DNA of 64,000 bases, from assembly GCA_025936175.1 (NCBI GenBank), contig JAICTV010000003.1:1-64000 (forward strand), in the 5' to 3' direction. Origin of the DNA: Phycisphaerae bacterium. Lineage in GTDB: Bacteria; Planctomycetota; Phycisphaerae; Tepidisphaerales; Tepidisphaeraceae. Shown here one piece after another: positions 18,617-40,989 of the stretch. The first letter of the stretch is position 1. The number at the start of each line of letters is the position of its first letter. A model generated the notes under the pieces. It was not told the DNA's origin. It was given only the letters and a program-made list of their open reading frames with translations, and did no database searches. A program made the translations under genes and the position numbers.

Positions 18617-21600
18617 ATGTCGAAGCGAAAGTGTCGGGCCGCCCGCCTCGAGCGGCTGGAGGATCGTCGTCTGCTCTCGGTGGGCGTTCAGCCCGCCGGG
18701 CCGCTCGCCGGGCATGTGCTGTACACGCAGGGGGGCCACGGAATCTATTGGAAGTCCACCGCTTTCAGTTACATGCGCCCCAATTCCTACGGCCTGATCG
18801 AGGACCTGGGCAATCAGGACATGCTCGAGAACTACGCGCAGTACGTCCTCAATGCCGGCGGGACGATGGTCTCGATGCGCCCGGTGGGGCATCAGACCAA
18901 CGAAGCCGTCGTCGATAACGCGCAGGCGTACACCGCCGGCGCGGGTGGGTTTCAGGTTGTTTCCGGCACGTGGACGAACAACACCTCTTCGACGCCCTAC
19001 TGGTCCAATAATAACGGCAACGACAGCGTTCATTTCGTCACGGCGGCGACCAGCGCGACGGAGACGGCGGTGGCGCGATTCGTTCCCAACATTCCGGCCG
19101 GCGGCTTTTATCCGGTCTACGCCTGGTGGAATCCCGGGACCAACAACGCCGCCACGAATGACCGCGTCGCGGATCAAACGTTCCGCATCAACTACTCCGG
19201 CGGCTCGTACGAAGTCCGCGTCGCGGCGAACAAGGTGGGCGACGGCTGGGTCTACCTCGGCAACTATTACTTCGCCGCCGGCGTCAATCCCGCCAGCGGA
19301 AGCGTCGAAGTCTCCAACAAATCCGCCACCACCGGCAACAAGGTCGTCGCCGATGCGATTCGGTTCGGCAACGGCATGGGAGACTGGACGGACAACGGCG
19401 TGCACCCGGTCTCCGGCCAGGCCCGCGAAGACGAGCCGGCGCTGTACTGGTGCTACGACGAACGCGGCTGGACCGGGTCGAATGCGCGCGTCGCGCAGAG
19501 CGTCGTCGATAACGGCAGCACGTCCGATGAGATGACCCGGAACTTCAGCGCCTGCGATCGTTACGCGGTCTACATGAACAACGAAAGCGTCGGCAACGCG
19601 ACCGACCGCGTCTGGATCAGCTTCCACACCAACGCCAGCGGCTCGGCTTCGACCGGCGGGAAGGCGCGCGGCACGTACGGGCTGATCAACGACCCGCCGA
19701 CGACCAATCAGGCATGGCTCGCCGACGCCGCGGGCGGGACGTTCCACAGCGAGATGAGCGCGCTCGATTCGGTACACGAGTTCGCGTGGGGCTATCCCGG
19801 CGCCAACACGTTTACCGGCGGGTATTCGGAGATCAGCAAGAACGTGATCGGGACCGAATTCGATGCGACGATCATCGAGGTCGCTTTCCATGACAACGCG
19901 ACGGATTCGGCGCTGCTGAGAAGTCCGGCCGTCCGGCTGGATGCCGGGCGGACCGCATACCACGTGGCGATGAAGTATTTCGCCAATTTCGATCCGAGCG
20001 GATTCACCAATACAACCTGGGCGCCGGAGCCGGCGAGCGACGTGCGCGCCACGACCAACGCGGGCGGCCAAGTAACGATCTCGTGGAGCGCCGGCCCAAG
20101 CTCGAGTGGCGCCACCGGCCCGTACGGCAATGCCGCCACCGGCTACCTCGTGCAGACCTCGACCAACGGCTACGGCTTCGATGGCGGAACCAGCGTCGCG
20201 GGGACGAGTTTCACGTTCAGTGGTCTCTCCACAACCGCGCCGACCTATTTCCGCGTCGTGGCGGTCAACCCCGGCGGCGTCTCGGTGCCGTCTGCCGTGG
20301 TCGTCGCCAAGCCGCAGAGCGGGCGGCCGGCGCCGGTCCTGATCGTCAACAATTACAGCCGGCTCGACGAAGCCTTCGATCAGACCCAAAACACGATCCT
20401 GGGCCTGGCCTACCGCACGCGGACGCGCTATCAGAACACGTTCGACTACGACGTGCTCGTCGCGGGCGCCGTCTCCCATTTCGACTCCTCCCTCGACATC
20501 GAATCGTGCACCGACAAGGCGATCGCCAGCGGCGAAATCAACCTCTCCAATTACGCGGCGGTCATCTGGTACAGCGGCGAGAACGCCAAGGCCACCTACG
20601 GCAACGGCACGACCGCCGGCACCACGTTCACCAGCGTCACGCAACCCCTGGTCACGGCGTATCTCAACGGTGGCGGCAAGCTGTTCGTCAGCGGCGCGGA
20701 GATCGGGCACGAGCTGGTCGGCGACGGTTACGGCCCGAGCTTCTACGGCGCCACGCTCAAGAGCAGCTACGTCGCCGACGCCGCCGGGACATACACCGCC
20801 GCGGGCGCTTCCGGCAAAATCTTCGACGGCATCGCGCTGTCGTTCGACGACGGCACGGGCGGCGCCTACAACGTCAGCAACCCGGACGTGCTCGGCGCCG
20901 CGGGGGGATCGTCGATCGCGATGAACTACACCGGCGCCGGCAGCGGCGGCGCGGCGATCCAGTACAGCAACGGCAACTCGCGCCTCGTCAACATGGGCTT
21001 GCCCTTCGAGACGATCACCACCGCCGCCGGTCGCAACGCCGTCATGGCGGCCGTGCTCAACTTCTTCAACATCGTCGGCACGCTGAGCGTCTCGGGGTTC
21101 GTCTACCAGGACAACAACGGCAACAACGTCAAGGACGCCGGCGAGAACGGCTTCAACGGGCGAACCGTCTGGAGTGACACGAACAACAACGGCGCGCTCG
21201 ATGCCGGCGAGTCCAGCACGACCACCGACGCCGGCGGCGCCTACACGTTGGCCGGGTTGCCGCCGGGGTCGTATAACGTCCGCGCGGCCTTGGGGACCGG
21301 CTATATCCGCACCGGCTCGGCGAGCGTCGTCGTCAACCTCAGCGGATCGAACGGCTCGGCCAGCTTCGGCCAGTTCCCCGTCATCTACAACGGCGGCGCG
21401 GGCGCGAGCGCGGACACCTACACGCTGAGGCTCGATCCGGCGAGCAACACCATGGTGCAGATCATCGAATCGCTGGGCGGCGGGGGCGCGACGACCTACG
21501 AGATCGACAAGTCGCTGCTCTCGACGCTGCTCTTTAACCCCGGCAACGGCGACGACACGCTCGTGATCGACTACACGAGCGGCTCGCCGATCCCCAACAA

Positions 21601-22483
21601 CGGCATCACCTTCGCCGGCGGCGGGAACAACGACACGCTCACCCTCACCGGCTCCGACAACGCCGCCGACAACGTTACCGTCGCCGACGGCAGCATCACC
21701 GCCGGCGGCACGATCGCGTGGAGCTTCGTCGAGGCGATCAACGTCAACACCGGCGGCGGGGACGACACCTTCACGTACGCCGGGCCCGTCGGCGTGCCGG
21801 TCAATTTCACCGGCGGGACGAGCACGAACTTCGACACGATGAACGTGACCGGCGGGACATTCACGTTCGCATCGGATGCGTCGGCGGGGACGACCAACCT
21901 CCAGCTCAACGTCTCCGCCGGCGCCGGCGTGATGTTCAACGCGACTCAGCATCTGCGCGGCTTGTCCGTCGATGGCGCCGTCACACTGAGCGGCGGCGGG
22001 GCGAAGGTGATCGTCACGAAGAACCTCGCCGTGGCGGGCACGCTCAACTTGTCCGACAACGATCTCGTTTACGACTATTCCGGCGCCACGCCGTACGACG
22101 CCGTCTTCGCGCTGATCGCGACGGGGCGCAACGGCGGGTCGTGGGACGGCGCCAGCGGCATCCGCACCAGCAACGCGTCGGCCGACCTCACCGGCCTGGC
22201 GATCGCCGAAGCATCCGATGCGCTGGGCCTGAGCGGCGCGCAGACCGCAGGCTTCGACGGTCAGAGCGTTGACGCGACGGCGCTGCTGATCAAGTTCACG
22301 TACGTCGGCGACGCGAACCTGGACGGGATGATCAACGGGGACGACTACTTCCAGATCGACAGCGCGTTCCCGCAGCAGGCGCACGGATATTTGAGCGGCG
22401 ACTTCAACTACGACGGGCTTATTAACGGAGACGATTACTTCCTGATCGACTCGAATTTCCCGCAACAGGGACCGCCGCTGTAG
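18617..22483 (+). CDS. Exported amidase with golvesin-like insert, FN3, SdrD-B and dockerin domains
   Basis: A 1288-residue exoprotein. LERLEDRRLLS (11-21) marks it for export. A zinc amidase_3 (N-acetylmuramoyl-L-alanine amidase) fold is split: the first part has GGHG (His41) and QDMLENYAQYV (Glu71); a golvesin C-terminal-like domain (about 106-250; FVPNIPAGGFYPVYAWW, GWVYLGNYYFAAG) is inserted; the second part has VWISFHTNA (His337) and IIEVAFHDN (Glu421). Then come a fibronectin III domain (468-565), a GATase/ThuA-like domain (573-828; VIWYSGENAK, LFVSGAEIGHELVG), an SdrD-B repeat (825-905), a beta-rich module and a C-terminal dockerin pair. It probably cleaves peptidoglycan-like or glycopeptide amide bonds. 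ATG 18617 gives the motif its usual position. Confidence 0.85.
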   Translation: MSKRKCRAARLERLEDRRLLSVGVQPAGPLAGHVLYTQGGHGIYWKSTAFSYMRPNSYGLIEDLGNQDMLENYAQYVLNAGGTMVSMRPVGHQTNEAVVDNAQAYTAGAGGFQVVSGTWTNNTSSTPYWSNNNGNDSVHFVTAATSATETAVARFVPNIPAGGFYPVYAWWNPGTNNAATNDRVADQTFRINYSGGSYEVRVAANKVGDGWVYLGNYYFAAGVNPASGSVEVSNKSATTGNKVVADAIRFGNGMGDWTDNGVHPVSGQAREDEPALYWCYDERGWTGSNARVAQSVVDNGSTSDEMTRNFSACDRYAVYMNNESVGNATDRVWISFHTNASGSASTGGKARGTYGLINDPPTTNQAWLADAAGGTFHSEMSALDSVHEFAWGYPGANTFTGGYSEISKNVIGTEFDATIIEVAFHDNATDSALLRSPAVRLDAGRTAYHVAMKYFANFDPSGFTNTTWAPEPASDVRATTNAGGQVTISWSAGPSSSGATGPYGNAATGYLVQTSTNGYGFDGGTSVAGTSFTFSGLSTTAPTYFRVVAVNPGGVSVPSAVVVAKPQSGRPAPVLIVNNYSRLDEAFDQTQNTILGLAYRTRTRYQNTFDYDVLVAGAVSHFDSSLDIESCTDKAIASGEINLSNYAAVIWYSGENAKATYGNGTTAGTTFTSVTQPLVTAYLNGGGKLFVSGAEIGHELVGDGYGPSFYGATLKSSYVADAAGTYTAAGASGKIFDGIALSFDDGTGGAYNVSNPDVLGAAGGSSIAMNYTGAGSGGAAIQYSNGNSRLVNMGLPFETITTAAGRNAVMAAVLNFFNIVGTLSVSGFVYQDNNGNNVKDAGENGFNGRTVWSDTNNNGALDAGESSTTTDAGGAYTLAGLPPGSYNVRAALGTGYIRTGSASVVVNLSGSNGSASFGQFPVIYNGGAGASADTYTLRLDPASNTMVQIIESLGGGGATTYEIDKSLLSTLLFNPGNGDDTLVIDYTSGSPIPNNGITFAGGGNNDTLTLTGSDNAADNVTVADGSITAGGTIAWSFVEAINVNTGGGDDTFTYAGPVGVPVNFTGGTSTNFDTMNVTGGTFTFASDASAGTTNLQLNVSAGAGVMFNATQHLRGLSVDGAVTLSGGGAKVIVTKNLAVAGTLNLSDNDLVYDYSGATPYDAVFALIATGRNGGSWDGASGIRTSNASADLTGLAIAEASDALGLSGAQTAGFDGQSVDATALLIKFTYVGDANLDGMINGDDYFQIDSAFPQQAHGYLSGDFNYDGLINGDDYFLIDSNFPQQGPPL

Positions 22484-22542
22484 CTTCGCGCGGTTCGCCG
22501 CATCCCTCCCGCGCCCGTGCCCGCGCGCCGCCACGCGACGAT

Positions 22543-22845
22543 GGGTTCGTTTTGTAATCCGAGGCGCGTCCGAATCCCCTCCTTTCTGCGTTTTCAAGCC
22601 GCCAACGCGGTTTTTCGCTGGCTTCGATTGGGTTCGTTTTGCACGGGCGACCGACGGCACATTCGAGCGCGCGCCCCAATGCGCCGTTGGCTTCGTTCCG
22701 CACATTCGCGACGCTACTGAAGATTTCTGAACAAAACTGAACATGCCTGAACGTGACTGGACCGCCGCTTGCGCGATGGCGTGATCAAAGAACACGTCCT
22801 CCCCTCATCCCTCACGATTGCACAAACGTGATCACGAACGTGCAA
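22543..22845 (+). repeat. Intergenic 'GGGTTCGTTTTGCA' element, copy 2
   Basis: The second copy of the repeat at 16813-17115, direct orientation. It has GGGTTCGTTTTG-type units at 22543, 22630 and 22689 (the last GGCTTCGTTCCGCA), a shared CATTCGAGCGCG and the terminal palindrome TTGCACAAACG-TGATCA-CGAACGTGCAA (22818-22845). The surrounding gap 22484-23056 shows no gene. Confidence 0.7.
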
Positions 22846-23056
22846 TTCGCGGGATTTTTTCTGCGGATGATCTGCAGGCGACACTGCGCACGCGTTTTTT
22901 TTCGCGGGAACCTTTCCCGCGTGGCGGCATGGTGGATGTCATGGTTGCGTCAACGCGCGGCGGCTTCGCACGCGCCCGTTTTTCTCGACCCATTGCGATC
23001 AACGCGTAGGATTATTTCTTGATCGATGAGAACTACGCCGGGCAGGAGGCGGCGCT

Positions 23057-23950
23057 ATGATCAATTGCCTGAAAAACAAGCTCGCGCAGGTGGCGGCGCC
23101 GGTCGTGGCGGGGTTGGTGGCAGGGGTCGCGGCGCACGCGGCTCGGGCGGATCTCGTCTACGTCACCGTGCCGGCGGAGAACGCGGTGTATCGCTACAGC
23201 GCGCCCAACAGCGGCGGCGTGTTCGCCGGCACCGGGATGAACAACCCGCACGGCATCGCGCTGGACGCGGCGGGGAACGTCTTTGTCGCCAACAGCGGGA
23301 ACAACACGATTGTCAAGTTCACGCCCGAGGGCGCCCGATCGGTCTTTGTCAGCAACGGCCTGAATGCGCCGTGGGGGATGGCATGCGATTCGGCGAGCGA
23401 TCTCTTTGTCGCCAGCCGGAACGATAACGCCGTCGTGAAGTTCACGCCCGCCGGCGTCGCGTCGGTGTTTGCCACCGCGGCGGCGGGTCTAAGCGATCCG
23501 AGAGGGCTCGCGTTCGACGCCGACGGCAACTTGTACGTTTCGAATCACGGCAATAACTCGGTGCGCAAGTTCACGCCCGCGGGCGTCGGCTCGATCTTCG
23601 CGAACACAAACGTGACGGAGCCGGGCGGGCTGGCATTCGACAGTCTCGGAAACCTGTATGTGGCGAACGCGAACAATTCGCCGGTGGAAAAGTTCACGCC
23701 GGACGGCGTCGGCACCCGCCTGAACACGAGTACGAACGCGGTGGGACTCGCCGTCGACAGCCAGGACAACCTGTTCGCGAGTTACTTTCTCAATGTCGAT
23801 CGCTACGCGCCGGACGGGACGCGGACCCGATACACCGATGTCGGCGGCGGGTTCGTCGCAACGCAGGTCCCCGAGCCGGCGGGGGCGGCGGCGGTGGCCG
23901 GACTCTCTGCTGCGGCGGTATCGACACGTCGCCGTCGCCGCTCGCCGTAG
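23057..23950 (+). CDS. Secreted NHL/SMP-30-like propeller with PEP-CTERM anchor
   Basis: A 297-residue exported protein. ATG 23057 follows AGGAGG by seven bases. A signal peptide ends around HAARA. Six or so beta-propeller repeats follow, each with a pattern like GIALDAAGNVFVANSGNNTIVKFTPEG and GLAFDADGNLYVSNHGNNSVRKFTPAG, as in NHL and gluconolactonase-like proteins. The C-terminus QVPEPAGAAAVAGLSAAAVSTRRRRR is a PEP-CTERM sorting signal: PEP motif, hydrophobic helix, arginine cluster, recognised by exosortase for cell-surface attachment. It is the only protein in the window with this signal and it sits inside the LEPR-XLL block. Confidence 0.85.
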   Translation: MINCLKNKLAQVAAPVVAGLVAGVAAHAARADLVYVTVPAENAVYRYSAPNSGGVFAGTGMNNPHGIALDAAGNVFVANSGNNTIVKFTPEGARSVFVSNGLNAPWGMACDSASDLFVASRNDNAVVKFTPAGVASVFATAAAGLSDPRGLAFDADGNLYVSNHGNNSVRKFTPAGVGSIFANTNVTEPGGLAFDSLGNLYVANANNSPVEKFTPDGVGTRLNTSTNAVGLAVDSQDNLFASYFLNVDRYAPDGTRTRYTDVGGGFVATQVPEPAGAAAVAGLSAAAVSTRRRRRSP

Positions 23951-24136
23951 TTTGCCCGCCTTCACGAGAATCGTCGCAACCATTTGCTATTCGCGCCACC
24001 CGCACATCTCGGGCGTGGCGGACGGTGGATTCGATGTGGTAAACTCGTGGGGCACACGGCCGTACCGCGTCCTTTGTCCGCGGAGGGGCAGGACGCAGGG
24101 GCGTTGTGCTCGTGCCTGTTTGTGGGGTCAGTTCGG

Positions 24137-27100
24137 ATGGGGATTTTTTCGACAGTCCAATCGCCAGCGCGCTCGCTTCCTCCTCGTCGTCATCGCGGCC
24201 GCGGTGGGCGCGGGCGGATCGGGGGCGCGCTGCGGGAGGCGCTGGAACTGCTGGAGCGGCGGACGCTGCTCGCGTGGTCGCCTTCGGTGTCGCTGGTCGC
24301 GGACGTGAACACCGCGACCAACAACGCCACGCCGGGGCCGTTCGTGAGCGCTTCGGGGAGCGTGCTCTTTGGCGCGACCGATGGGATTAACGGGCGCGAG
24401 CTGTGGAAGAGCGACGGCACCGCGGCCGGCACGGTGATGGTCAAGGACATCAACCCGCTGGGCTCATCGAGCCCGGCGGCACTGAGCTCGATCTCCGCGG
24501 GCACCACGCTCTTCTTCGCCGATGACGGGACGCACGGCATCGAGCTGTGGAAGACGGACGGCACCGCGGCGGGGACGCAACTGGTCAAGGACATCAATCC
24601 CGGCAGCGGCATATCGGTGCGTTTGCCGAACCCGGCGGGCGGGCCGCAGCCCACGCCGGTCATCGTCGCGCTGGGCGGCGTGGGTTACTTCGAGGCCAGC
24701 GACGGGATCAGCGGCTACGCGCTGTGGCGGAGCGACGGGACGGAAGAGGGGACGTACCAGGTCAAGGACATCAATCCGTCCACCGCGACATCGTCGAGTG
24801 CGCCGGGCGTGACGTCGCTGAAGGTGTTCAACAACGCGATCTTCTTCGTCGCGGATGACGGCTCGGCGGGAGCGGAAGTCTGGCGCAGCGATGGGACAAA
24901 TGCGGGCACGCAGATCCTCAAGGACATCGCGCCCGGCGTCGGATCGTCGTCGCCGGCGCGGCTGACCGTGTCCGGATCCAACCTGTTCTTTGCCGCCACC
25001 GATCAAACCGCGTTCGGCAACGAGCTGTGGAAGAGCGACGGGACGACGACCGGCACCGTGATGGTGAAGGACATCAATCCGGGCGGCAACTCCTCGACGC
25101 CGCAGAACCTGTGCGACGTGAACGGCACGCTCTTCTTCCAGGCGGGCGACGGGGTCAACGGCTCGGAACTGTGGAAGAGCGACGGGAGCGGCGGGGGGAC
25201 GACGCTGGTCAAGGACATCGTCGCCGGCGCGACGTCGCCGAAGATGGACAGCTTCACCAACGTCGGGGGGACGCTGTTCCTGGCGGTCAGCGCCAACGGC
25301 GTGGACGGGCGCGAGCTGTGGAAGAGCGACGGGACGGGCGCGGGGACGGCGGAGGTCAAAGACATCGTTCCCGGCAGCGGCAGCGGTGTGCCCAGCTCGC
25401 CGAATTTCACGTCGTTCAACAACAAGCTGTACTTCGCCGGCACCGACGGCGCCGCCGACGGCATCGAGCTGTGGACCAGCGACGGCACGGCGGCGGGCAC
25501 GGTGATGGTCAAGGACATCAGCCTCGGCGCGGGCAACGGCTCGCCGGCGAACTTGTACGTCGCCGGTTCGACGCTGCTGTTCTCCGCGACCGATGTCGCC
25601 ACCGGCTCGGAGCTGTGGACGAGCGACGGGACGACCGGCGGCACGGCGCAGGTCAAGGACATCAACGCGTCGACGGCGACCGGCTCGCCGTTCGGCATGA
25701 CGGAGATCAACCGCCACATCGTCTTCTCCGCGCTCGATCCGGTGCACGGGCGCGAAGTCTGGTCCACCGATGGGACGGCGGCTGGGACGATTCTTCTCGC
25801 CGACACCAATCCCGGGATCGCCAGCGGGATGTCTTCGTTCGCGCCGGCGAAGCTCGGGTCGTACCTCTACTTCCCCGCCGGGTCCGGGACCACGCAGCTC
25901 TGGCGGACGGACGGGACGGTGGCGGGAACCGGCATCGTCACGACGTTCGACTTCAGCGTGACACACGTCGCGAACGTCGGCGGCGCGCTGCTCTTCTGGA
26001 CCGGCACCAGCGCGACAGGGATCGAGTTGTACAAGAGCGACGGCACCGCCGGCGGGACGGGCATCGTCGCCGATCTCGTCCCGGGCGCGGCCAGCTCTTC
26101 GCCGCAGAGCGATTTCACCGTCATCGGCGGGGTCGGCTACTTTGCGTCCAACACTTCCGCCGCGGGCACGGAGCTGTGGCGCACCGACGGCGCCGCCGGG
26201 GGAACGGCTCTGCTCAAGGACATCAACGCGGGCGGGGGTTCGTCGTATCCCGGCAGTTTCTTCGCGTTCGGCGGGCAACTGCTGTTCAGCGCGACGACGC
26301 CGGCCGAGGGGCCGGAGCTGTGGCGCAGCGACGGCACGCCCGCCGGCACGGTCCTGGTGAAGGACATCACGCCGGGGGCGTTCGGCTCCTCGCCGTCTCA
26401 GTTCGCGCAGCTCGGCGGCAGCGTCCTCTTCTACGCCGCCGGCGAGTTGTGGGGCACCGACGGGACATCCGACGGGACGCAGCTTGTCAAAGAGATCGAT
26501 CCGGGTCCGCAGTTCGGCAACCCGGCGGGGCTGACGACCTGGAACGGCGCCGTCTACTTCTCCGCGCAGCACGACCTGACTGATTCGGAGCTGTGGAAGA
26601 GCGACGGCACCGGCGCGGGCACCGTGCGCGTGAAGGACATCTACGCCGGCAGCGGCTCGTCCGGCCCGCAGAATTTCGTCGCGATGGATGATGCGATCTA
26701 CTTCCAGGCGACCGATGCGGGCGGCGGGGCGGAACTGTGGAAGAGCGACGGAACCGACGCCGGCACCGTGCGCGTCGCCGACATCTGGCCGGGCAGCACG
26801 GGCTCGACGCCGCTGCGGCCGGCGCGCTGCGGCTCGACGCTCTATTTCCAGGCGAGCGATCCGACGATCGGCGGCGAGTTGTATCGCGTCGGGCCGCCGG
26901 AAGTGTCGAACGTGCGCGCGGTCGGGGTCGGCAAGCTGCTGGTCGAAGGCACCGCGGGCGATGACGCGTTCGGCATCGGCTCCGATGCCAGCGAGCTGCA
27001 GATCGTCATCTACGTCAACGGCGTCGAGACGACCCTGAGCTATCCCGTCGGCTCGATCACGCAGGTCACTTTCGAAGGCTACGGCGGGAACGACACGCTC

Positions 27101-27820
27101 GGCACCGTCGGCACCGGCGTCGCCAGCGTCTACTTCCACGGCGGAAGCGGCAACGACACGATCGACGTCAGCAGCGGCACGTTCACTTTTCCCGAAGACG
27201 CGCGCATCGGCAACGACTCGCTCGGCGTCGAGATCGAGCAGGGCGCGCACGTCGTCTTCAATGCGTCGCAGCACCTGCATCATCTCGTGCTCGACGGCGA
27301 CGCGACGCTGACGGCGGGCGGCGAGAAGGTGATCGTGCTCGACGGCGGCATTGCGGGCGATCACCGCCTCGATCTCAACGACGGCGATCTGATCTTCGAC
27401 TATCCCGACGGCGATGCTTCCCCGCTCGCGCAGCTCGAGCAGCTCGTCGCGTTCGGGCGGACGCCGGGCGGCACGTGGACGGGTGATGGCATCGCCTCGA
27501 GCGTCGCGGGAACCGACAGCGGCAAGTACGCGCTCGGCATCGCCGAAGCGTCCGACGTGCTCGGCCTGGCGCCCGGTCAGACGGGCGTGTTCGGCGGCGA
27601 AACCGTCGATGCCAGCGCGATCCTGATCAAGTTCACCTGCGCCGGGGATGCGAACCTCGATGGCGTAATCAACGGCGACGATTACTTCCAGATCGATTCG
27701 GCCTTTCCGCAGGCGTCGCACGGGTGGTGGAACGGTGATTTCAATTACGACGGGGTCGTCAACGGGGATGATTACTTCCTGATCGACAGCAATTTCCCCG
27801 CCCAGGGCCCGCCCCTGTGA
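24137..27820 (+). CDS. ELWxxDGTxxGT repeat exoprotein with dockerin
   Basis: A 1227-residue exported protein. ALELLERRTLLAW near residue 37 is the LEPR-XLL-type motif. The central part has 17 copies of an about 50-residue unit whose core is ELWKSDGTAAGTVMVKDI (TIGR04534-type ELWxxDGTxxGT repeat), which probably folds into beta-propeller blades. From about residue 930 follow a beta-rich region and the module shared with 18617 and 27895 products (ASQHLHHLVLDGDATLTAGGEKV, GRTPGG-W, ASDVLGLAPGQTGVFGGETVD), ending in a dockerin pair (GDANLDGVINGDDYFQIDS, GDFNYDGVVNGDDYFLIDS). ATG 24137 is a choice; no strong ribosome site is visible and the frame is open upstream. Confidence 0.82.
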   Translation: MGIFSTVQSPARSLPPRRHRGRGGRGRIGGALREALELLERRTLLAWSPSVSLVADVNTATNNATPGPFVSASGSVLFGATDGINGRELWKSDGTAAGTVMVKDINPLGSSSPAALSSISAGTTLFFADDGTHGIELWKTDGTAAGTQLVKDINPGSGISVRLPNPAGGPQPTPVIVALGGVGYFEASDGISGYALWRSDGTEEGTYQVKDINPSTATSSSAPGVTSLKVFNNAIFFVADDGSAGAEVWRSDGTNAGTQILKDIAPGVGSSSPARLTVSGSNLFFAATDQTAFGNELWKSDGTTTGTVMVKDINPGGNSSTPQNLCDVNGTLFFQAGDGVNGSELWKSDGSGGGTTLVKDIVAGATSPKMDSFTNVGGTLFLAVSANGVDGRELWKSDGTGAGTAEVKDIVPGSGSGVPSSPNFTSFNNKLYFAGTDGAADGIELWTSDGTAAGTVMVKDISLGAGNGSPANLYVAGSTLLFSATDVATGSELWTSDGTTGGTAQVKDINASTATGSPFGMTEINRHIVFSALDPVHGREVWSTDGTAAGTILLADTNPGIASGMSSFAPAKLGSYLYFPAGSGTTQLWRTDGTVAGTGIVTTFDFSVTHVANVGGALLFWTGTSATGIELYKSDGTAGGTGIVADLVPGAASSSPQSDFTVIGGVGYFASNTSAAGTELWRTDGAAGGTALLKDINAGGGSSYPGSFFAFGGQLLFSATTPAEGPELWRSDGTPAGTVLVKDITPGAFGSSPSQFAQLGGSVLFYAAGELWGTDGTSDGTQLVKEIDPGPQFGNPAGLTTWNGAVYFSAQHDLTDSELWKSDGTGAGTVRVKDIYAGSGSSGPQNFVAMDDAIYFQATDAGGGAELWKSDGTDAGTVRVADIWPGSTGSTPLRPARCGSTLYFQASDPTIGGELYRVGPPEVSNVRAVGVGKLLVEGTAGDDAFGIGSDASELQIVIYVNGVETTLSYPVGSITQVTFEGYGGNDTLGTVGTGVASVYFHGGSGNDTIDVSSGTFTFPEDARIGNDSLGVEIEQGAHVVFNASQHLHHLVLDGDATLTAGGEKVIVLDGGIAGDHRLDLNDGDLIFDYPDGDASPLAQLEQLVAFGRTPGGTWTGDGIASSVAGTDSGKYALGIAEASDVLGLAPGQTGVFGGETVDASAILIKFTCAGDANLDGVINGDDYFQIDSAFPQASHGWWNGDFNYDGVVNGDDYFLIDSNFPAQGPPL

Positions 27821-27894
27821 CAACTTTTCCTTTCGTTTCCGCCTGCCGGGCGTGATACCTTCTGCGGGTTTGCGGCAAGTGGGGCGGAGGGCTT

Positions 27895-30800
27895 ATGCAC
27901 TCGTCATCCAAAGCACGTCGTGGCTCGCGCTTGCGCGGGCGGGGGACTGAATGGATCTTTAACGCGGTCGATGCGCTGGAAGCGCGGATGATGCTGTGCG
28001 ACAGCGGCTGTCTTGATGAGTCGAAGCTCGCGCCGCAATCGACGGTGCCCGTCGCCGCCACTTTGCTCGCGCCCGCGCCCGCGCTCACGCTCACGCTCAC
28101 GCTCACGCCGGCGCCCACGCTCGCTCCGGTCTCTCCCAAGACCTCGGAGGAAGAGGTCAAGGTCGATGACAAGGAGGCGAAGTTCCACGGCAACAAGAAC
28201 AAGCTGCCGAAGGTGCAGGCGCCGCTCTCCAAAGCGGACACCGATACATCGTTCACCAACCTCGCGGGCTTCGGCGCCGGCACGAACGTCAACATCTCCA
28301 AGCGCACCGGCTACCAGGGCGAAGGGACGATCGCGATCGATCCGACCAACCCGAATCGCCTGTTCGCCGCGTCGAACCTCGCGGGCTCGGGGCTCTTCGC
28401 CGCGTACAGCACCGATGCCGGGCAGACGTGGACGACGCGCACGATGGCCAGCGGCTCGGACGGGCTGCCGGTCGCCTGCTGCGACGCCAGCAGCTCGTGG
28501 GACCAGTTCGGCAACCTCTTCGTCGGCTACATCCAGACGAACGTCAACCCGGCCAAGACGGTGCTGGTGCGCTCGAGCGACGGCGGGCAGACGTTCTCGC
28601 TGGTGACGACGTTCAGCGCGTCCGATCAGCCGACGGTGACGACGGGGCCGGGCAACGTCGCCGGCAGCGGGAGCGTGTGGCTGTCGTGGGTGAGCAACAC
28701 CGGCAACCAGCTCGTCGCCTCGGGCGCGCAGGTGACCGCATTGGGGACGATCGGTTCGTTCATCTCGCCCGAGTCCACGCCGAGCACTACCGGGAACTTC
28801 GGCGACATCGCCATCGGTCCCGGCGGCGCGGTGATGGTGACGTACCAGGACAACACCGGCGGGCAGGGCTTGTCGAACCTCCGCGTCAACGTGGATTCCG
28901 ACGGCGTGGGAGCGAACGGCTTCGCCGCGACGGTCACGCCGACGACCACCAACGTCGGCGGGTTCGACTTCATCCCCGCGCAGTCGCGGCGGAGCGTGGA
29001 TGCGGAGGCGGGGCTGGCGTGGGACCACTCCGGCGGGCCGCACAACGGCCGCGTCTATCTCATGTACACCAGCGAGTCGCCGGACGAGAGCAACGACATG
29101 GACATCAACGTCCGCATCAGCGACAACAACGGCGCGACCTGGTCGGCGCCCGTGCGCGTCAACGACGACGCGACGACCCGCACGCAGATGCTCCCGCGCA
29201 TCGCGCTCGATCAGAGCAGCGGCAACGTCGCGATCACCTGGCTGGATGCGCGCAACGACGCGGGCGCCGGCGGCGCGGGCGACACCAACGGCGTCGCCAA
29301 CGACGACGTGCAGCTCTGGGGAACCCTCAGCACCGATTCCGGGACGACCTGGCAGCCGAACATGCAGATCAGCGCCGGCACCTCGCGCGCCGGGGCGCAG
29401 AGCAACTCCAACGACTTCGGCGATTACACAGGGCTGGCGTTCGTCGGCGGCGCGTTCTATCCGATCTGGCCGGACAACAGCACGGCGCTGGGCGGCAATC
29501 CCGACCTGCCGAACTTCGACATGGCGACGGCGCGGCTGACGGTCGGGCCGTCGGTGCCCACCAACGACAACTTCGCCAGCCGGATCAATCTCGGCAACAG
29601 CACCAGCGCGAGCACCGCGGGATCGAACGCCAACGGCACGAAGGAATCGGGCGAGCCGAACATCGCGGGCAACGCCGGCGGGTCGTCGGTCTGGTGGAGC
29701 TGGACCGCGCCCACCAGCCAGAGCTACGTCATCACCACCGCGGGCAGCAATTTCAACACGCTGCTGGGCGTCTACACCGGCTCGGCGGTGAACTCGCTGA
29801 CGCAAACAATCGCCAACGATGACGAGAACAACCCGAGCATCCTCACCAGCCGCGTGACCTTCAACGCCGTCGCGGGCACGACCTATCAGATCGCCGTTGA
29901 CGGCTTCAACGGCGCCACCGGCAACATCGCGCTGGGGATCAGCCTCGCGCAGCACACGATCTCCGGCGCCGTTTTCGTGGATCGCAACAGCAACGGCGTG
30001 ATCGACAGCGGCGAGCCGCTGCCGGGCGGGCGCAGCGTCTTCCTCGACACTAACAATGACGGCAGCTTCCAGTCCGGCAGTTCATCGCCGTCTTCTACCG
30101 ACGTGCCAAAGAACATCGCGGACCTGAGCACCGTCACGTCGAACCTGATCGTCAGCGGGTTCGGCGGAGCGGTCACGGATGTGAACGTCACGCTGAACAT
30201 CACGCACACCTTCGACTCGGACTTGACGGTCTTCCTCATCAGCCCGACCGGCACGCGCGTGCAGCTCTTCGCCGGCGTCGGCGGCAGCGGCGACAACTTC
30301 ACCAACACCACGCTCGACGACGAAGCCGCCGGCTCCATCACCACCGGCACCGCGCCGTTCGGCGGATCGTTCAAACCGCAGGGATTGCTCTCGGGCGTAG
30401 ACGGGCAGTCGCCTAACGGGACGTGGCAGCTCGAAGTGAACGACACGGCATCCGGCGACGTCGGGACACTCAACAGTTGGTCGCTGGCGATCGGCTTCGC
30501 GGAGCCTTCGACGACCACCAACGGCAGCGGGGCGTACACGTTCAGCGGCTTGCCGAGCGGGACCTACAACATCCGCCAGGTGCAGGTCGCGGGCTTTTTG
30601 CAGACCTCGCCCTCGCCCTCGACGGCGGCGCGGACGATCGTCGCGCAGCTCGGGCAGCCGACGACGGGACAGAACTTCGGCAACTTCCCGCTCAGCTTCG
30701 CGGGCTCGGTCAACAACGATACGTACGCGCTCTCGACGCTGGTCGGCGGGACGACGCTGCAGATCCTCGAGACGCTGGGCGCTTCGCCGCTCGTCACCTA

Positions 30801-31830
30801 TCAGATCCCCAAGGCGACCTTGGGCAGCAGCACGCTCACCTTCACCGGCAACACGGGCGATGACGCGTTTGCGCTCGATTACACCAACGGCGCGCCGCTG
30901 CCGACCAACGGCATCACGATCAACGGCAGCGGCCAGACCACCGCCGACACGCTGACCATCACCGGCAGCGCCGCGGGCGATGCGCTGTCGATCGGGACCG
31001 GCGGCATCACCTTCGGCTCGACGATCAGCTACTCCGGTATCGAGACGATCATGATCAACACTGCCGGCGGCGACGATACGCTCACGCAATCGTCGCAGCC
31101 CGGCGGGACGCTGGTCTTCAACGGCGGCGCGAGCACGACCGCCGACACGCTGACGATCAATGCCGGCTCGATCGCGTTCAACAGTGACGCGGGCATCGGC
31201 ACGACGGCGCTGAACCTGAACGTCAACGCGGCCGGCACGTCCGCGACGTTCAACGCGACGCAGCACCTGAACAACCTCAGCATCGTCAGCGGCGCCAATG
31301 CTGATATGTCCGCCAACGGCTCGCGCGTACTCGTCACCAGCGGTTTGACGATCGTCGGCAGCGCTCAGCTCAACCTGCGCGACAACGACATGATCGTGAA
31401 GTACACGGCGAGCAGCCCGCTGGGCACGTGGAACGGCACGGCGTACACCGGCATCACCGGCCTGCTCGCCAGCGGCAACAACAACGGCGCGTGGAACGGC
31501 GCTGGCATCGCCACGACCTCCGCCGGCGGTGATCTGACCGGCCTTGCCGTCGGAGAATCTGCCGACATCTTCGGCCTCGGCGGCACGCAGACCGCCAGCT
31601 TCGACGGCGAAACGGTCGATTCCAAGGCCGTCCTCGTGAAGTTCACCTACACCGGCGACGCGAACCTCGACGGCGTGATCAACGGCGATGATTATTTCCA
31701 GGTGGACTCGGCGTTCCCGCAAGGTTTGCACGGCTATTTCAACGGCGATTTCAACTACGACGGCGTGATCAACGGGGACGACTACTTCCTGATCGACAGC
31801 AACTTTCCCGCGCAGACGGGAGCGCTTTAA
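27895..31830 (+). CDS. Sialidase-like exoprotein with P-domain inserted in SdrD-B repeat, dockerin
   Basis: A 1311-residue exported protein. GGAGG precedes ATG 27895. VDALEARMMLCD (about 25-36) is the export motif variant. BNR/sialidase-type Asp boxes follow (STDAGQTWTTR, SSDGGQTFS, SDNNGATWSAP, STDSGTTWQPN) in a propeller at about 95-560, then a PPC-like domain (about 553-685). An SdrD-B repeat begins at about 688 (SGAVFVDRNSNGVIDSGE), is interrupted by a proprotein-convertase P-domain (about 730-868: VNVTLNITHTFDSDLTVFLISPTGT, NGTWQLEVND), and resumes with EPSTTTNGSGAYTFSGLP. The shared beta module and dockerin pair end it. The substrate is unknown; the boxes suggest a carbohydrate or structural role. 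Confidence 0.83.
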   Translation: MHSSSKARRGSRLRGRGTEWIFNAVDALEARMMLCDSGCLDESKLAPQSTVPVAATLLAPAPALTLTLTLTPAPTLAPVSPKTSEEEVKVDDKEAKFHGNKNKLPKVQAPLSKADTDTSFTNLAGFGAGTNVNISKRTGYQGEGTIAIDPTNPNRLFAASNLAGSGLFAAYSTDAGQTWTTRTMASGSDGLPVACCDASSSWDQFGNLFVGYIQTNVNPAKTVLVRSSDGGQTFSLVTTFSASDQPTVTTGPGNVAGSGSVWLSWVSNTGNQLVASGAQVTALGTIGSFISPESTPSTTGNFGDIAIGPGGAVMVTYQDNTGGQGLSNLRVNVDSDGVGANGFAATVTPTTTNVGGFDFIPAQSRRSVDAEAGLAWDHSGGPHNGRVYLMYTSESPDESNDMDINVRISDNNGATWSAPVRVNDDATTRTQMLPRIALDQSSGNVAITWLDARNDAGAGGAGDTNGVANDDVQLWGTLSTDSGTTWQPNMQISAGTSRAGAQSNSNDFGDYTGLAFVGGAFYPIWPDNSTALGGNPDLPNFDMATARLTVGPSVPTNDNFASRINLGNSTSASTAGSNANGTKESGEPNIAGNAGGSSVWWSWTAPTSQSYVITTAGSNFNTLLGVYTGSAVNSLTQTIANDDENNPSILTSRVTFNAVAGTTYQIAVDGFNGATGNIALGISLAQHTISGAVFVDRNSNGVIDSGEPLPGGRSVFLDTNNDGSFQSGSSSPSSTDVPKNIADLSTVTSNLIVSGFGGAVTDVNVTLNITHTFDSDLTVFLISPTGTRVQLFAGVGGSGDNFTNTTLDDEAAGSITTGTAPFGGSFKPQGLLSGVDGQSPNGTWQLEVNDTASGDVGTLNSWSLAIGFAEPSTTTNGSGAYTFSGLPSGTYNIRQVQVAGFLQTSPSPSTAARTIVAQLGQPTTGQNFGNFPLSFAGSVNNDTYALSTLVGGTTLQILETLGASPLVTYQIPKATLGSSTLTFTGNTGDDAFALDYTNGAPLPTNGITINGSGQTTADTLTITGSAAGDALSIGTGGITFGSTISYSGIETIMINTAGGDDTLTQSSQPGGTLVFNGGASTTADTLTINAGSIAFNSDAGIGTTALNLNVNAAGTSATFNATQHLNNLSIVSGANADMSANGSRVLVTSGLTIVGSAQLNLRDNDMIVKYTASSPLGTWNGTAYTGITGLLASGNNNGAWNGAGIATTSAGGDLTGLAVGESADIFGLGGTQTASFDGETVDSKAVLVKFTYTGDANLDGVINGDDYFQVDSAFPQGLHGYFNGDFNYDGVINGDDYFLIDSNFPAQTGAL

Positions 31831-31907
31831 ACCCAGCGAACTCGGCTAAACTGCGCAGTTCGCGGCGATTTTCGCGAAACTTTTCGCAGCGGATGACGTT
31901 TTTCTCG

Positions 31908-31935
31908 TTGAGCGCCTCGGGGAGCGGTCTATAAT
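31908..31935 (+). promoter_or_regulatory. Candidate promoter of the first SdrD-B gene
   Basis: TTGAGC (31908-31913), 16 bases, TATAAT (31930-31935), the best -35/-10 pair in the exoprotein block. It implies a 5' leader of about 140 nt before GTG 32086. Confidence 0.5.
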
Positions 31936-32067
31936 CCGCCGCTCTTGTCTCGCCGCCGCGGGGAGGGCCGTCTTCATCGAACGGAACCCGGGGCGGCACA
32001 CAGCGCTTTTTGCGAACATCGCGGGCTTGGACGTCGTTCTTCCTGTTACGTCTTCGTGTCGTTCTCC

Positions 32068-32085
32068 GGAGAGTGAGGTTTCCCA
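32068..32085 (+). promoter_or_regulatory. Duplicated ribosome-binding leader
   Basis: GGAGAGTGAGGTTTCCCA precedes GTG 32086. The same GGAGAGTGAGGTTT precedes GTG 33867 in the paralogue, so the leader was copied with the gene. GTGAGG is 7 nt from the start. Confidence 0.6.
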
Positions 32086-33693
32086 GTGAACAAGCGTTCC
32101 CCTGTCGCCGTCGGCCGTGCCGTCTCGTCATTTTTCGAGCCCCTTGAAAACCGCCAACTGCTGAGCCTGGTCGTCGATCTTCGCCTCCCCGGTGGCGCCA
32201 AGAGCGCCAACGTCTCCAGCGTCGGGCAGGTCATCAACATGGAGATCTGGGCGACCGCAAAGGGCTCCAACTCCAGCGGCTCCGATGAAGGTTTGCAGAT
32301 CGTGGATGGCTCGCTGCTCAGCACCAACGTCAGCGGCGGCGCCGCCAGCGGGACGCTAAAGGCCACCCTCGTCTCGCCGTTTAACGCATTAGGATCGACC
32401 ACCGGCCAGCAGAAGGACCTCGACGGCGACGGCGATCTGGACGTCGGCTCCAACGACAACACCAGCGCCACCAACTTCCTCTTCGCGCGCTCCGCGGCGA
32501 TCACCACCAACGGCAGCGTGAGCGGATCGAGCCAGGCGTGGAAGATCGGCACCGCGACCTTCACCGTGACGTCGCTCAAGAGCACGAGCGGCCAGACGAA
32601 CCTCGTCTGGCGGGTGCGCGACGCCAAGCAAGGCGCGCTCTGGCGCGAGGACGGCTCGAACATCTACAAGAACGGCGACACGGGCTCGTATTCCGGCGGC
32701 GCGGCGCTGGTGCTCAAGCGCGGCGGGACGTCGACCGGAGGCTCCATCTCCGGCACCGTCTTCAACGACGCGAACAAGAACAACAGCAAGGACTCGAGCG
32801 AGTCGGGCATCGGCGGCGTCACCGTCTTCATCGACAAGAACAAGAACGGCAGCAAGGACTCGGGCGAACCCAGCACGACCACCGACAGCGCCGGCGGCTA
32901 CTTCTTCGGCGGGCTGGCGTCGGGAGGCTATCGCGTCAAGCAGCTCTCCAAGAGCGGCTTCAAGATCACCTCGCCCTCCAGCGGCTATTACGATCTGTCG
33001 CTCTCGACCAACCAGAACATCAGCGGCAAGAACTTCGCCAATCAGTCCACGACCACCACCGTCAAGGGCTCGATCGCCGGCAATGTCTGGGTCGATGTCA
33101 ACGGCAACACCAAGAAGGACACCGGCGACAACGCCAAGTCGGGCGTCAAGGTCTATATCGACAAGAACAAGAACGGGAAGTTCGACACCGGCGAGACTAC
33201 CGCCACCACCGACTCCAAGGGCAACTACAAGTTCTCCAACCTTTCGGCCGGCAGCTATCGCATCAGCGTCAGCCAGTCCGGCTACCGCGTGAGCACCCCG
33301 ACGGCGCTCTACTCCGACATCACCGTCGGCAGCGGCAGCAACGTCACGGGCAAGAACTTCGGCATCACGCAGAAGGTTCTGATCAGCGGGCGGCTGTGGG
33401 TGGACAAGGACAACGACGGAAAGTTCGACACCGGCGAATCGGCGCTCTCCGGCTGGCAGGTCTACATCGACAAGAACAAGAACGGCAAGCTGGACGCTGG
33501 CGAGAACGTCGTCACCACGGATTCCAGCGGCAACTACAGCTTCAAGATGCTGTCGGCGGGTTCGTACCGCGTGCGCGTGGTGCAGAAGACCGGCTACACC
33601 CGCATCTCGCCGTCGAGCGGGTACTACGACCTGAACAACCTGGGCAACGGGTCGGTGCAGAAGGACAAGAACTTCCGGTACAAGAAACCGTAA
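32086..33693 (+). CDS. SdrD-B repeat exoprotein (paralogue 1)
   Basis: A 535-residue exported protein beginning at GTG 32086. FEPLENRQLLSL (about 16-27) is the LEPR-XLL motif. A beta-rich domain of about 150 residues (28-180; VDLRLPGGAKSANVSSVGQ, EIWATAKG, DEGLQI, DLDGDGDLDVGS, FLFARS) matches the next gene. Then three SdrD-B-type repeats (SGTVFNDANKNNSKDSSESG, GNVWVDVNGNTKKDTGD, GRLWVDKDNDGKFDTGES, each followed by FIDKNKNG/YIDKNKNG and a TTTDSxGxYxF part). These resemble calcium-binding prealbumin-like modules of surface proteins. It has no dockerin or PEP-CTERM. A terminator follows at 33734-33755. Confidence 0.85.
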   Translation: MNKRSPVAVGRAVSSFFEPLENRQLLSLVVDLRLPGGAKSANVSSVGQVINMEIWATAKGSNSSGSDEGLQIVDGSLLSTNVSGGAASGTLKATLVSPFNALGSTTGQQKDLDGDGDLDVGSNDNTSATNFLFARSAAITTNGSVSGSSQAWKIGTATFTVTSLKSTSGQTNLVWRVRDAKQGALWREDGSNIYKNGDTGSYSGGAALVLKRGGTSTGGSISGTVFNDANKNNSKDSSESGIGGVTVFIDKNKNGSKDSGEPSTTTDSAGGYFFGGLASGGYRVKQLSKSGFKITSPSSGYYDLSLSTNQNISGKNFANQSTTTTVKGSIAGNVWVDVNGNTKKDTGDNAKSGVKVYIDKNKNGKFDTGETTATTDSKGNYKFSNLSAGSYRISVSQSGYRVSTPTALYSDITVGSGSNVTGKNFGITQKVLISGRLWVDKDNDGKFDTGESALSGWQVYIDKNKNGKLDAGENVVTTDSSGNYSFKMLSAGSYRVRVVQKTGYTRISPSSGYYDLNNLGNGSVQKDKNFRYKKP

Positions 33694-33733
33694 AGATCGC
33701 GCGGCGGTCGCGAATTGAGCAACGAGGAAGGAG

Positions 33734-33772
33734 CCCCGTGCGGCAGAGCGCGGGGTTTCTTTCGTTTTACTT
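33734..33772 (+). terminator. Terminator after SdrD-B paralogue 1
   Basis: CCCCGTGC (33734-33741), six-base loop, GCGCGGGG (33748-33755), then TTTCTTTCGTTTT. It lies 40 bases after the stop codon. Confidence 0.7.
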
Positions 33773-33806
33773 TGAAACATCGCATGCGGCGTAAACTTAC
33801 TATATT
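33772..33806 (+). promoter_or_regulatory. Possible promoter of SdrD-B paralogue 2
   Basis: TTGAAA (33772-33777) with TAAACT (33792) or TATATT (33801-33806) as -10. Neither spacing is ideal. It is an AT-rich island right after the terminator of the upstream paralogue. Confidence 0.3.
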
Positions 33807-33866
33807 GTTGTGACCACCGGGCCTCAGTGCCGTTCTTTCACGTCTTTTTGGAGAGTGAGGTTTTTC

Positions 33867-35108
33867 GTGTCCAAGTCCTTCGTTGAACCGCTCGAATCGC
33901 GCCGGCTCCTTAGCGGCTCCGTTGTCGTCGACACCCGCCTCGTCGGCGGCGGGGCCACCGCCACCGTGAGCTCCGTCGGCCAGAAAATCGATTTCGAGGT
34001 CTGGGCCACCGTCACCGGCAGCGACGCCGACAACACGAACGAAGGCCTGCAGATCGCCATCGGATCGCTGCTCTCCAGTAATGTGGCGGGCGGCTCGGCG
34101 AGCGGGACGATCAGCTCCACCGTCCCAGCTCCTTTCAACGCCAACGGATCACAAAACGGTTCGCAGGTTGACCTCGACGGCGACGGCGATCTGGACGTCG
34201 GGAGCAACAACAACGCCAGCGCTTCCGGGTTCGTCTTCGCGCGGTCCGCTTCGATGACGACCAGCGGCACCCCCGTGACCGGCGGGCAATCCTTCAAGAT
34301 CGCGACCGGAAGTTTCACCGTCGGGTCGCTTCTCAACGGCGTTTCAACCGTGCTGTCGTTCCGTCCGCGCGTGGGAGACGGGACCGTGTTCGAGGCCGAC
34401 GGCACCACCACGAGCAATCTCGCCGCGGGCACCGTTTGGGCCACCGGCGCGGGCATCACGCTCAAGCGTCCCGGTGCCGCCTCCATTCAGGGACGCGTCT
34501 TTAACGACAAGAACGCCAACGGCATCTTCGACGGCGCCGACACCGGCATCGACGGGTTCCGCGTGTTCCTGGATGAGAATGCCAACGGCACGCTCGACAC
34601 CGGCGAGATCTCCAAGCCGGTGAGCACCACCGGCACGTACACCTTCAGCAGCGTCCCCAGCGGGATCTATCGCGTGCGCGAAGTCTTCCGCGAAGGCTGG
34701 CGGCAGACGTTCCCCGCGCTGGGCTATTACCAGGTCACCCTCGCCTACGGCGCCGCCGCCAGGAGCCAGTCCTTCGCCAACACCGACACGGTGCTCATCA
34801 AGGGCAACGTCTTCATGGACGCCAACGTCAATCACAAGAAGGACGCCCTGGAGCCGGGCCTCAGCGGGTGGATGCTCTACATCGATCACAACAACGACGG
34901 CATCCTCAATAAGGGCGACGACTGGGCGCTGTCGGATGCGAAGGGGAACTACCGCTTCTTCAACCTCCCGGCCGGGACGTACGTCGTGCGCATCGTGCAG
35001 CAGGCGGGTTACCGGCAGACGGCGCCGGCGGGCGGATCGCACACCATCACGCTCGCCGCCGGCGGGACGGTCAGCAACAAGTATTTCGGGGAGAAGCGGC
35101 TTAAGTAG
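33867..35108 (+). CDS. SdrD-B repeat exoprotein (paralogue 2)
   Basis: A 413-residue exported protein. GTG 33867 was chosen because it sits behind the same GGAGAGTGAGG leader as the upstream paralogue and puts FVEPLESRRLLSG at residue 5-17. The N-terminal beta domain (VVDTRLVGGGATATVSSVGQ, DFEVWATVTG, NEGLQIAIGSLLSSN, VDLDGDGDLDVGS, FVFARSAS) is homologous to that of 32086-33693. Two SdrD-B-like repeats follow (GRVFNDKNANGIFDGADTG, GNVFMDANVNHKKDALEPG), one fewer than the paralogue. No anchor or dockerin is present. It ends the exoprotein block. Confidence 0.85.
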   Translation: MSKSFVEPLESRRLLSGSVVVDTRLVGGGATATVSSVGQKIDFEVWATVTGSDADNTNEGLQIAIGSLLSSNVAGGSASGTISSTVPAPFNANGSQNGSQVDLDGDGDLDVGSNNNASASGFVFARSASMTTSGTPVTGGQSFKIATGSFTVGSLLNGVSTVLSFRPRVGDGTVFEADGTTTSNLAAGTVWATGAGITLKRPGAASIQGRVFNDKNANGIFDGADTGIDGFRVFLDENANGTLDTGEISKPVSTTGTYTFSSVPSGIYRVREVFREGWRQTFPALGYYQVTLAYGAAARSQSFANTDTVLIKGNVFMDANVNHKKDALEPGLSGWMLYIDHNNDGILNKGDDWALSDAKGNYRFFNLPAGTYVVRIVQQAGYRQTAPAGGSHTITLAAGGTVSNKYFGEKRLK

Positions 35109-40596: not shown

Positions 40597-40989
40597 AGGA
40601 CATCTCCTTTCGCGTCGCGCGCGGGCGCATCGATCAAAGCGCAAAACGACCGCGCGGACGTCACGACAGACGTGCGTCATCTGGCGAGAACTGCTACGGC
40701 GAAACAAATAGACGCGGCCCTTAGTGCCCTGCGGGAAGCGTCACTTCTCCCTAGAATTCTCCAAGCCACCTCCCACGGCGGCGTGGGGCAGATCATGCCA
40801 CGAATTCTCTGGAAAACAAAGGGAAAACAACAATTGTGACATCCAATAACTAATTCGTTTGTGAGGCCGGTAACTTGAGCGGGTGGGGCGGCCGCGCGGA
40901 TGTGCACTTCAACAGCAAACTTAAGAAAATCGGCGCTTTCCGGCAGGTCGTTGGCCTGTGCGGGGCTTTGCCTTTAAGGTTTTGTCACC
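40597..40989. other. Intergenic region between divergent exoprotein and ribH
   Basis: 393 bp. Besides the exoprotein ribosome site, it contains an AT-rich stretch (GGAAAACAAAGGGAAAACAAC, about 40811-40832, seen here in part) probably carrying the ribH promoter. I looked for an FMN riboswitch pattern before ribH and did not see one. No small gene was recognised. Confidence 0.4.

Follow-up and report, generated by a model that had tools for sequence, protein, structure and literature searches.

The stretch of DNA analysed here (the window) comprises the first 64,000 nucleotides of contig JAICTV010000003.1 from a Phycisphaerae bacterium (assembly GCA_025936175.1). The contig, C269, belongs to an assembly, G000, of 5.53 Mb in 384 contigs that is 86% complete. 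Its LEPR-XLL-type motifs and weak Planc_extracel matches make a planctomycete source likely. A block of this window encodes five exoproteins, named A to E below, three of which end in a tail resembling the dockerins of cellulosomes. A preliminary description had singled out the block, proposing that an N-terminal domain of D and E (the N-domain) is the partner of the tails in a surface assembly analogous to a cellulosome. The features of the block, in window coordinates, are as follows.

18617..22483, plus strand: protein A, with a LEPR-XLL-type N-terminus, Golvesin_C, weak fn3 and amidase matches, an SdrD_B-like repeat, the C-terminal β module and a dockerin-like tail ending at the stop codon.
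18656..18676, plus strand: LEPR-XLL-type motif of A, read from the sequence as LEDRRLL.
22271..22480, plus strand: dockerin-like tail of A, first half (D1-20) at 22310-22369 and second half at 22400-22459.
23057..23950, plus strand: protein with an NHL-repeat β-propeller and a PEP-CTERM-like C-terminus, lying between A and B and lacking a tail.
24137..27820, plus strand: protein B, with a LEPR-XLL-type motif (24251-24271), 18 ELWxxDGT repeats, the C-terminal β module and a tail.
27608..27817, plus strand: dockerin-like tail of B, assigned by profile and sequence comparison.
27895..31830, plus strand: protein C, with a LEPR-XLL-type motif (27976-27996), a BNR/Asp-box region, a PPC-like region, a P-domain, an SdrD_B-like region, the C-terminal β module and a tail.
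31033..31617, plus strand: C-terminal β module of C, common to A and B, modelled with short regular strands over its first ~125 residues at low overall confidence.
31618..31827, plus strand: dockerin-like tail of C, assigned by profile and sequence comparison.
32086..33693, plus strand: protein D, with a LEPR-XLL-type motif (32143-32163), the N-domain and SdrD_B repeats, lacking a tail.
32164..32721, plus strand: N-domain of D, the candidate partner.
33810..35108, plus strand: protein E, with a LEPR-XLL-type motif (33891-33911), the N-domain and SdrD_B repeats, lacking a tail.
33912..34469, plus strand: N-domain of E.

Sequence comparison bore out this layout, including the common β module and dockerin-like pair of A, B and C and the status of D and E as dockerin-free paralogues. 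The C-terminal region shared by the first three is 55% identical between A and B over 249 residues, 49% between A and C over 448 and 43% between B and C over 304 (E ≤ 6e-59). Its terminal part, a 70-residue tail built around a duplicated calcium loop, reaches 77-81% identity among the three. The β module ahead of it had no match in the PDB at E ≤ 1e-3, and its structural model has a predicted local distance difference test (pLDDT) score of 53, with the first ~125 residues modelled most reliably. D and E are 46% identical over 415 residues; both carry the N-domain (~186 residues, 51-52% identical), after which D has three SdrD_B stretches and E two.

Both repeats of each of the three tails show the calcium loop-helix ligand pattern D-x-N-x-D-G-x-x-x-x-x-D. 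When a profile made from the three tails was run against all solved structures, each of the nine matches at E ≤ 1 was a dockerin or a dockerin-bearing scaffoldin (best E 1.1e-4). In contrast, the curated cut-off of the Pfam model Dockerin_1 (PF00404) was missed by the tails of the window (B scored 14.7 against a required 22.9 bits; A and C were not listed), and one of the genome's 78 tails passed it (contig C378, 28 bits). The dockerin label of the preliminary description can therefore be kept because of the profile kinship to solved dockerins, and not by the Pfam model. The sequence similarity supports the view that the tails of A, B and C are dockerin relatives; calcium binding and docking are presumed. 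A classical Pfam dockerin pair was seen elsewhere in G000, at the end of a 170-residue protein with one membrane segment (locus L001, contig C317), which is unlike the exoproteins considered here.

Searching G000 with the tail profile gave 85 places at E ≤ 0.01. Full tails (≥ 85 bits, within the stretches spanning the profile matches) number 78. The block, put forward as a special neighbourhood, is therefore one instance of a genome-wide family, and the idea of a local cluster or in-cluster pair had to be dropped. As far as seen, the tail-bearing proteins are not enriched for cellulases. In two places the genes form arrays on one strand, with ten members in contig C256 (L120, L121) and eight in contig C123 (L125); one array has its tails at the stop codon, the other PEP-CTERM ends.

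The same two architectures recur throughout the genome. In 45 of the 78 cases the tail precedes a PEP-CTERM-type (VPEP) end with a hydrophobic stretch and a basic C-terminus. The other 33 tails lie at most five residues from the end of the frame (one of these being cut by a contig end), usually in proteins with an N-terminal LEPR-XLL motif. The exosortase model TIGR02602 matched three loci of G000, one above its cut-off, so that VPEP signal and exosortase coexist for the 45 proteins. Architecture was classed in the 59 complete open reading frames (ORFs), the 19 that run off the fetched stretch being set aside. PEP-CTERM without LEPR-XLL was found in 35, LEPR-XLL without PEP-CTERM in 21, neither in three and both in none (Fisher p 3.9e-13); the three with neither are two short frames (259 and 141 residues) and one with a variant motif. 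Six further genomes (n = 55, one gene being entered twice via overlapping loci) gave 24 with PEP-CTERM only, 19 with LEPR-XLL only, none with both and 12 with neither, seven proteins of genome G121 being scored as neither merely because in them the match to the tail extended over the PEP motif. This mutual exclusion suggests two alternative routes of export or attachment. Since both classes carry the tail, we discarded the notion that it is bound to a single export route.

The tail might itself act as a signal for sorting or secretion, in which case it would be recognised by machinery for export or surface attachment and not by a scaffold. Its position would fit, being in every protein examined either beside the C-terminus or directly ahead of PEP-CTERM, as would the high uniformity of tails within a genome and the lack, by eye, of an obvious hydrophobic signal peptide in the LEPR-XLL proteins. 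However, proteins that combine PEP-CTERM with a classical-looking signal peptide bear the same tail, which is therefore not tied to one route, and many LEPR-XLL exoproteins encoded in the vicinity of tail genes, among them D and E, do without it. We regard a sorting role as quite unlikely. Two other tail-less LEPR-XLL exoproteins were noticed in the window, one of the phosphoesterase family PF04185 (8920-9939, plus strand), the other with PKD and RTX repeats (38368-40707, minus strand). In genome G055, LEPR-XLL proteins (L146, L147, L177, L181, L182, L178) continue after the tail into a common motif resembling GILSQLFSTEPVL, which may be a further C-terminal signal for sorting or attachment; their counterparts in genome G163 end in Lys/Ala-rich stretches.

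The distribution of residues within the tails was unexpected. Among 140 tails from seven genomes, 139 find their best match inside their own genome. For a closer view, tails were split into halves and numbered from the first calcium ligand. The strict two-half pattern recognised 158 of 165 tails, missing seven, and the 158 come from 30 genomes, seven with 9-76 tails and 23 with a single tail, namely the best match to the window tails. Going by dockerin structures, we take positions 10, 11, 17 and 18 to be exposed, and 17 and 18 are presumably specificity determinants. At these four positions agreement between the two halves of a genome's tails is 69%, whereas a given half agrees with its counterpart from another genome in 12-13% of comparisons (the within-genome value was reached in 0 of 5000 permutations); the residues are thus lineage-specific and alike on both halves, as in dual-binding dockerins. 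Positions 2 and 4 show the reverse, with the halves agreeing in 2% of comparisons within a genome and the same half agreeing between genomes in 67% (first half) or 45% (second half). Because the halves differ at these positions and yet are conserved across genomes, the duplication must be old.

All four recognition positions are identical between halves in 14 of the 30 genomes, and residues 10-11 in 16, where they make up 13 different dipeptides. In the tail of A the recognition residues read GD/DS in both halves. Across 76 tails of G000, conservation at these four positions is 93-100% in either half, comparable to that of the calcium ligands, and the code is common to the tails of the two architectural classes. 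Symmetry averages 0.81 in tail-rich genomes (17) versus 0.54 in the others (13; p 0.05). Recent gene conversion between halves was considered as its origin and rejected for want of a codon signal: codon likeness at identical residues is 0.647 between halves of one gene and 0.645 between genes of G000, with similar figures in six other genomes. Conversion may have been ancient and followed by drift at silent sites.

Residues 10 and 11 are established specificity determinants of dockerins (PMC8063739), and sequence symmetry between dockerin halves goes with dual binding (PMC8063739; PMC5301203). The residue patterns look like a symmetric docking code private to each species, and point to a receptor; they are what a partner shared by a genome's tails and engaged in two orientations would leave. 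The chances are about even for the explanation we favour, in which the tails act as calcium-dependent dockerins with two faces and dock to one receptor shared by every tail of a genome. As the same recognition residues occur on both faces of all tails in a genome, a single common receptor engaged in two orientations is the most likely arrangement.

Cohesins, the receptors of cellulosomal dockerins, were sought accordingly. The Pfam cohesin model PF00963 gave no match in G000 at E ≤ 10, which extends to the genome the preliminary remark that no classical cohesin is visible. An alignment of planctomycete cohesins gave none at E ≤ 1, and none turned up when 10 of the 17 frames encoding tail-less exoproteins near tail genes were scanned with Pfam. 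By neither the Pfam model nor the planctomycete alignment does G000 contain the cohesin-bearing scaffoldin that defines a cellulosome. Over 397 genomes of the class, with the best 15 tail candidates scored in each, tails were found in 84, cohesins in 70 and both in 14. The two are uncorrelated, cohesins occurring in 14 of 84 genomes with tails and 56 of 313 others (p 0.87), and in four of 20 tail-rich genomes. Nor does symmetry depend appreciably on them, averaging 0.72 in the genomes with a Pfam cohesin (8) and 0.68 in those without (22). Not found in G000 and uncorrelated with tails, the Pfam cohesin gained no support as a candidate partner. The cohesin of G055 lies on a protein that also bears a tail; in another genome (L151, G068:C97), a 497-residue protein has a Pfam cohesin directly followed by a dockerin-like pair at the C-terminus.

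Several observations weigh against the docking explanation. No partner was found in G000 by PF00963 or the planctomycete alignment, in an assembly whose 86% completeness leaves room for a missing receptor, and tails and cohesins are unlinked across the class. Helix positions 13, 14, 16 and 20 equal the recognition positions in symmetry (75% within versus 24-27% between genomes), so that packing within the molecule may contribute to the likeness of the halves. In eight of the 30 genomes symmetry is slight or absent (≤ 25%), and 23 enter the test by one tail each. These data also bear on a different explanation, in which the tail, lacking any partner, caps the β module as a structural element stabilised by calcium, the halves being alike through mutual packing and the cassette having spread recently by duplication and shuffling. 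The symmetric helix core, the clustering of tails by genome and the failure to find a cohesin would all fit, and the 45 tails with a PEP-CTERM signal of their own would not need docking for retention. What recent spread alone would not predict is the near-invariance of positions 10, 11, 17 and 18 in 76 tails on unrelated proteins, the 13 different symmetric dipeptides at 10-11, or the retention at 2 and 4 of ancient residues that set the halves apart. We consider the cap unlikely, although it is the most serious of the alternatives.

With one code on two faces, 78 copies and no receptor found, the tails might also bind each other, homotypic contacts tying the exoproteins into a network that needs no receptor. 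To our knowledge this is without precedent, no known dockerin working by homotypic contact alone, and we deem it highly improbable.

The partner proposed originally, the N-domain of D and E, fared poorly. In G000 it occurs in four copies, against 78 tails. Across the class it was detected in nine genomes with a three-sequence profile and in 10 with a nine-sequence profile (best eight candidates scored per genome), several by short, weak matches only. Among the 20 tail-rich genomes, in which every candidate was scored, it is clear in four (G000, G055, G121 and G163), short or weak in two and absent at E ≤ 0.01 in 14. The preliminary description had named dockerin proteins without the partner as the finding that would speak against its pairing, and this is what most tail-rich genomes present. 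N-domains occur on stand-alone PEP-CTERM proteins (L036, L048, L040, L047, L049, L174), on an autotransporter-like protein (L039) and, in two genomes, within one polypeptide together with a tail: in G055 (C281, 2948 residues) and, with PEP-CTERM as well, in G000 (C56, a 1337-residue frame open at the contig edge).

Similarity searches gave little to suggest a cohesin. The N-domain had no Pfam match, cohesin included, none among solved structures at E ≤ 10, and no relative when used as query against the collection of genome contigs. An AlphaFold2 model built from two sequences contains about 11 strands (pLDDT 41, topology unreliable). Aligned with 19 planctomycete cohesins by hhalign, the domain gave a probability of 7.5% over 31 columns, pairing two of its strands with the cohesin 'GxLAxxxF' region. 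The score, 22.9, exceeds all of 200 column shuffles (maximum 17.1) and the other profiles tried (SdrD_B, β module and tail; maximum 15.4). A distant cohesin-like sandwich is possible.

A cohesin-like receptor role for the N-domain would be in keeping with this weak similarity above every control, with its neighbourhood in the window, with the finding that all four clear-N-domain genomes are tail-rich (Fisher p 6.7e-5, the relatedness of genomes not being corrected for) and with the PEP-CTERM-borne copies, which could be held at the surface. It is at odds with the four copies for 78 tails, the 16 of 20 tail-rich genomes without a convincing N-domain, the sharing of a chain with the tail, and the failure to match any Pfam family or solved structure. 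The N-domain is therefore an unlikely partner, and its service as receptor for the neighbouring tails in particular seems very doubtful; it is best regarded as another of many ectodomains. Of the surface assembly likened to a cellulosome, what survives is a set of dockerin-type tails with a code like those used for partner binding, which makes an assembly held at the surface by dockerins a reasonable proposal; the cohesin scaffoldin was not found and the N-domain partner lacks support.

Returning to two-faced docking, the following scheme can be proposed. Some 78 otherwise unrelated secreted proteins would form a large exoproteome ending in dockerin tails. One class would be exported by means of the N-terminal LEPR-XLL motif, the other by a classical-looking signal peptide together with a C-terminal PEP-CTERM signal recognised by an exosortase. 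If the PEP-CTERM signal is cleaved off during sorting, as is established for such proteins, mature proteins of either class would finish with, or close to, one and the same dockerin, and could dock in either orientation to the single receptor of their genome, which would probably reside at the cell surface. A wider generalisation, that planctomycetes run a cohesin-free docking system with a private two-faced code per genome, two export routes and a new class of receptor, is conceivable and somewhat less probable than not.

Whether the two-fold symmetry of dockerins is functional or a relic of duplication is stated as an open question in the cellulosome field (PMC8063739). The tails amount to a natural experiment outside cellulosomes, in which the halves keep old differences away from the recognition surface and change jointly at the recognition positions. 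If the docking explanation is right, at least 13 tightly symmetric code variants would show that selection maintains dual-face binding, and that the symmetry is no duplication relic. It would also provide a large set of orthogonal protein tags, explain how a big planctomycete exoproteome could be gathered, and make the hunt for the receptor a well-defined undertaking. A literature search, covering titles and the openings of abstracts in the case of the code, found neither a symmetric dockerin code in planctomycetes nor a paper combining dockerin with PEP-CTERM.

Compared with known systems, the tails share with cellulosomal dockerins (PF00404; type I and type II, from Clostridium and Bacteroides cellulosolvens) the duplicated D-x-N-x-D-G...D calcium loop followed by a helix. 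They resemble dual-binding dockerins in their two-fold symmetry and in the lineage-specific residues 10 and 11 (PMC8063739; PMC5301203). They differ in having a shorter linker between loops (mostly 29-30 residues from D1 to D1', versus 33 in the best solved match), in being placed ahead of PEP-CTERM or, in LEPR-XLL proteins, at the C-terminal end, and in coming from a genome in which no cohesin was found. The N-domain and cohesin (PF00963) are both β-rich and have one strand pair aligned, without a significant match. Another parallel is the 'planctosome', a non-cellulosomal surface complex of cohesins and dockerins proposed for Nemodlikiaceae, a group of freshwater Planctomycetes (PMC6461901). 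It too involves planctomycete dockerin proteins; its model rests on a protein with a recognised cohesin and on peptidases (PMC6461901), whereas G000 has the tail on 78 proteins and no cohesin found. Finally, with PEP-CTERM/exosortase sorting (TIGR02595, PF07589, TIGR02602) the tail proteins share the VPEP-type end, which follows 45 of the 78 tails in a genome with three exosortase-like loci. The tail proteins depart from that system in that the dockerin is an added module ahead of the signal, and in that the LEPR-XLL proteins carry the tail without the signal.

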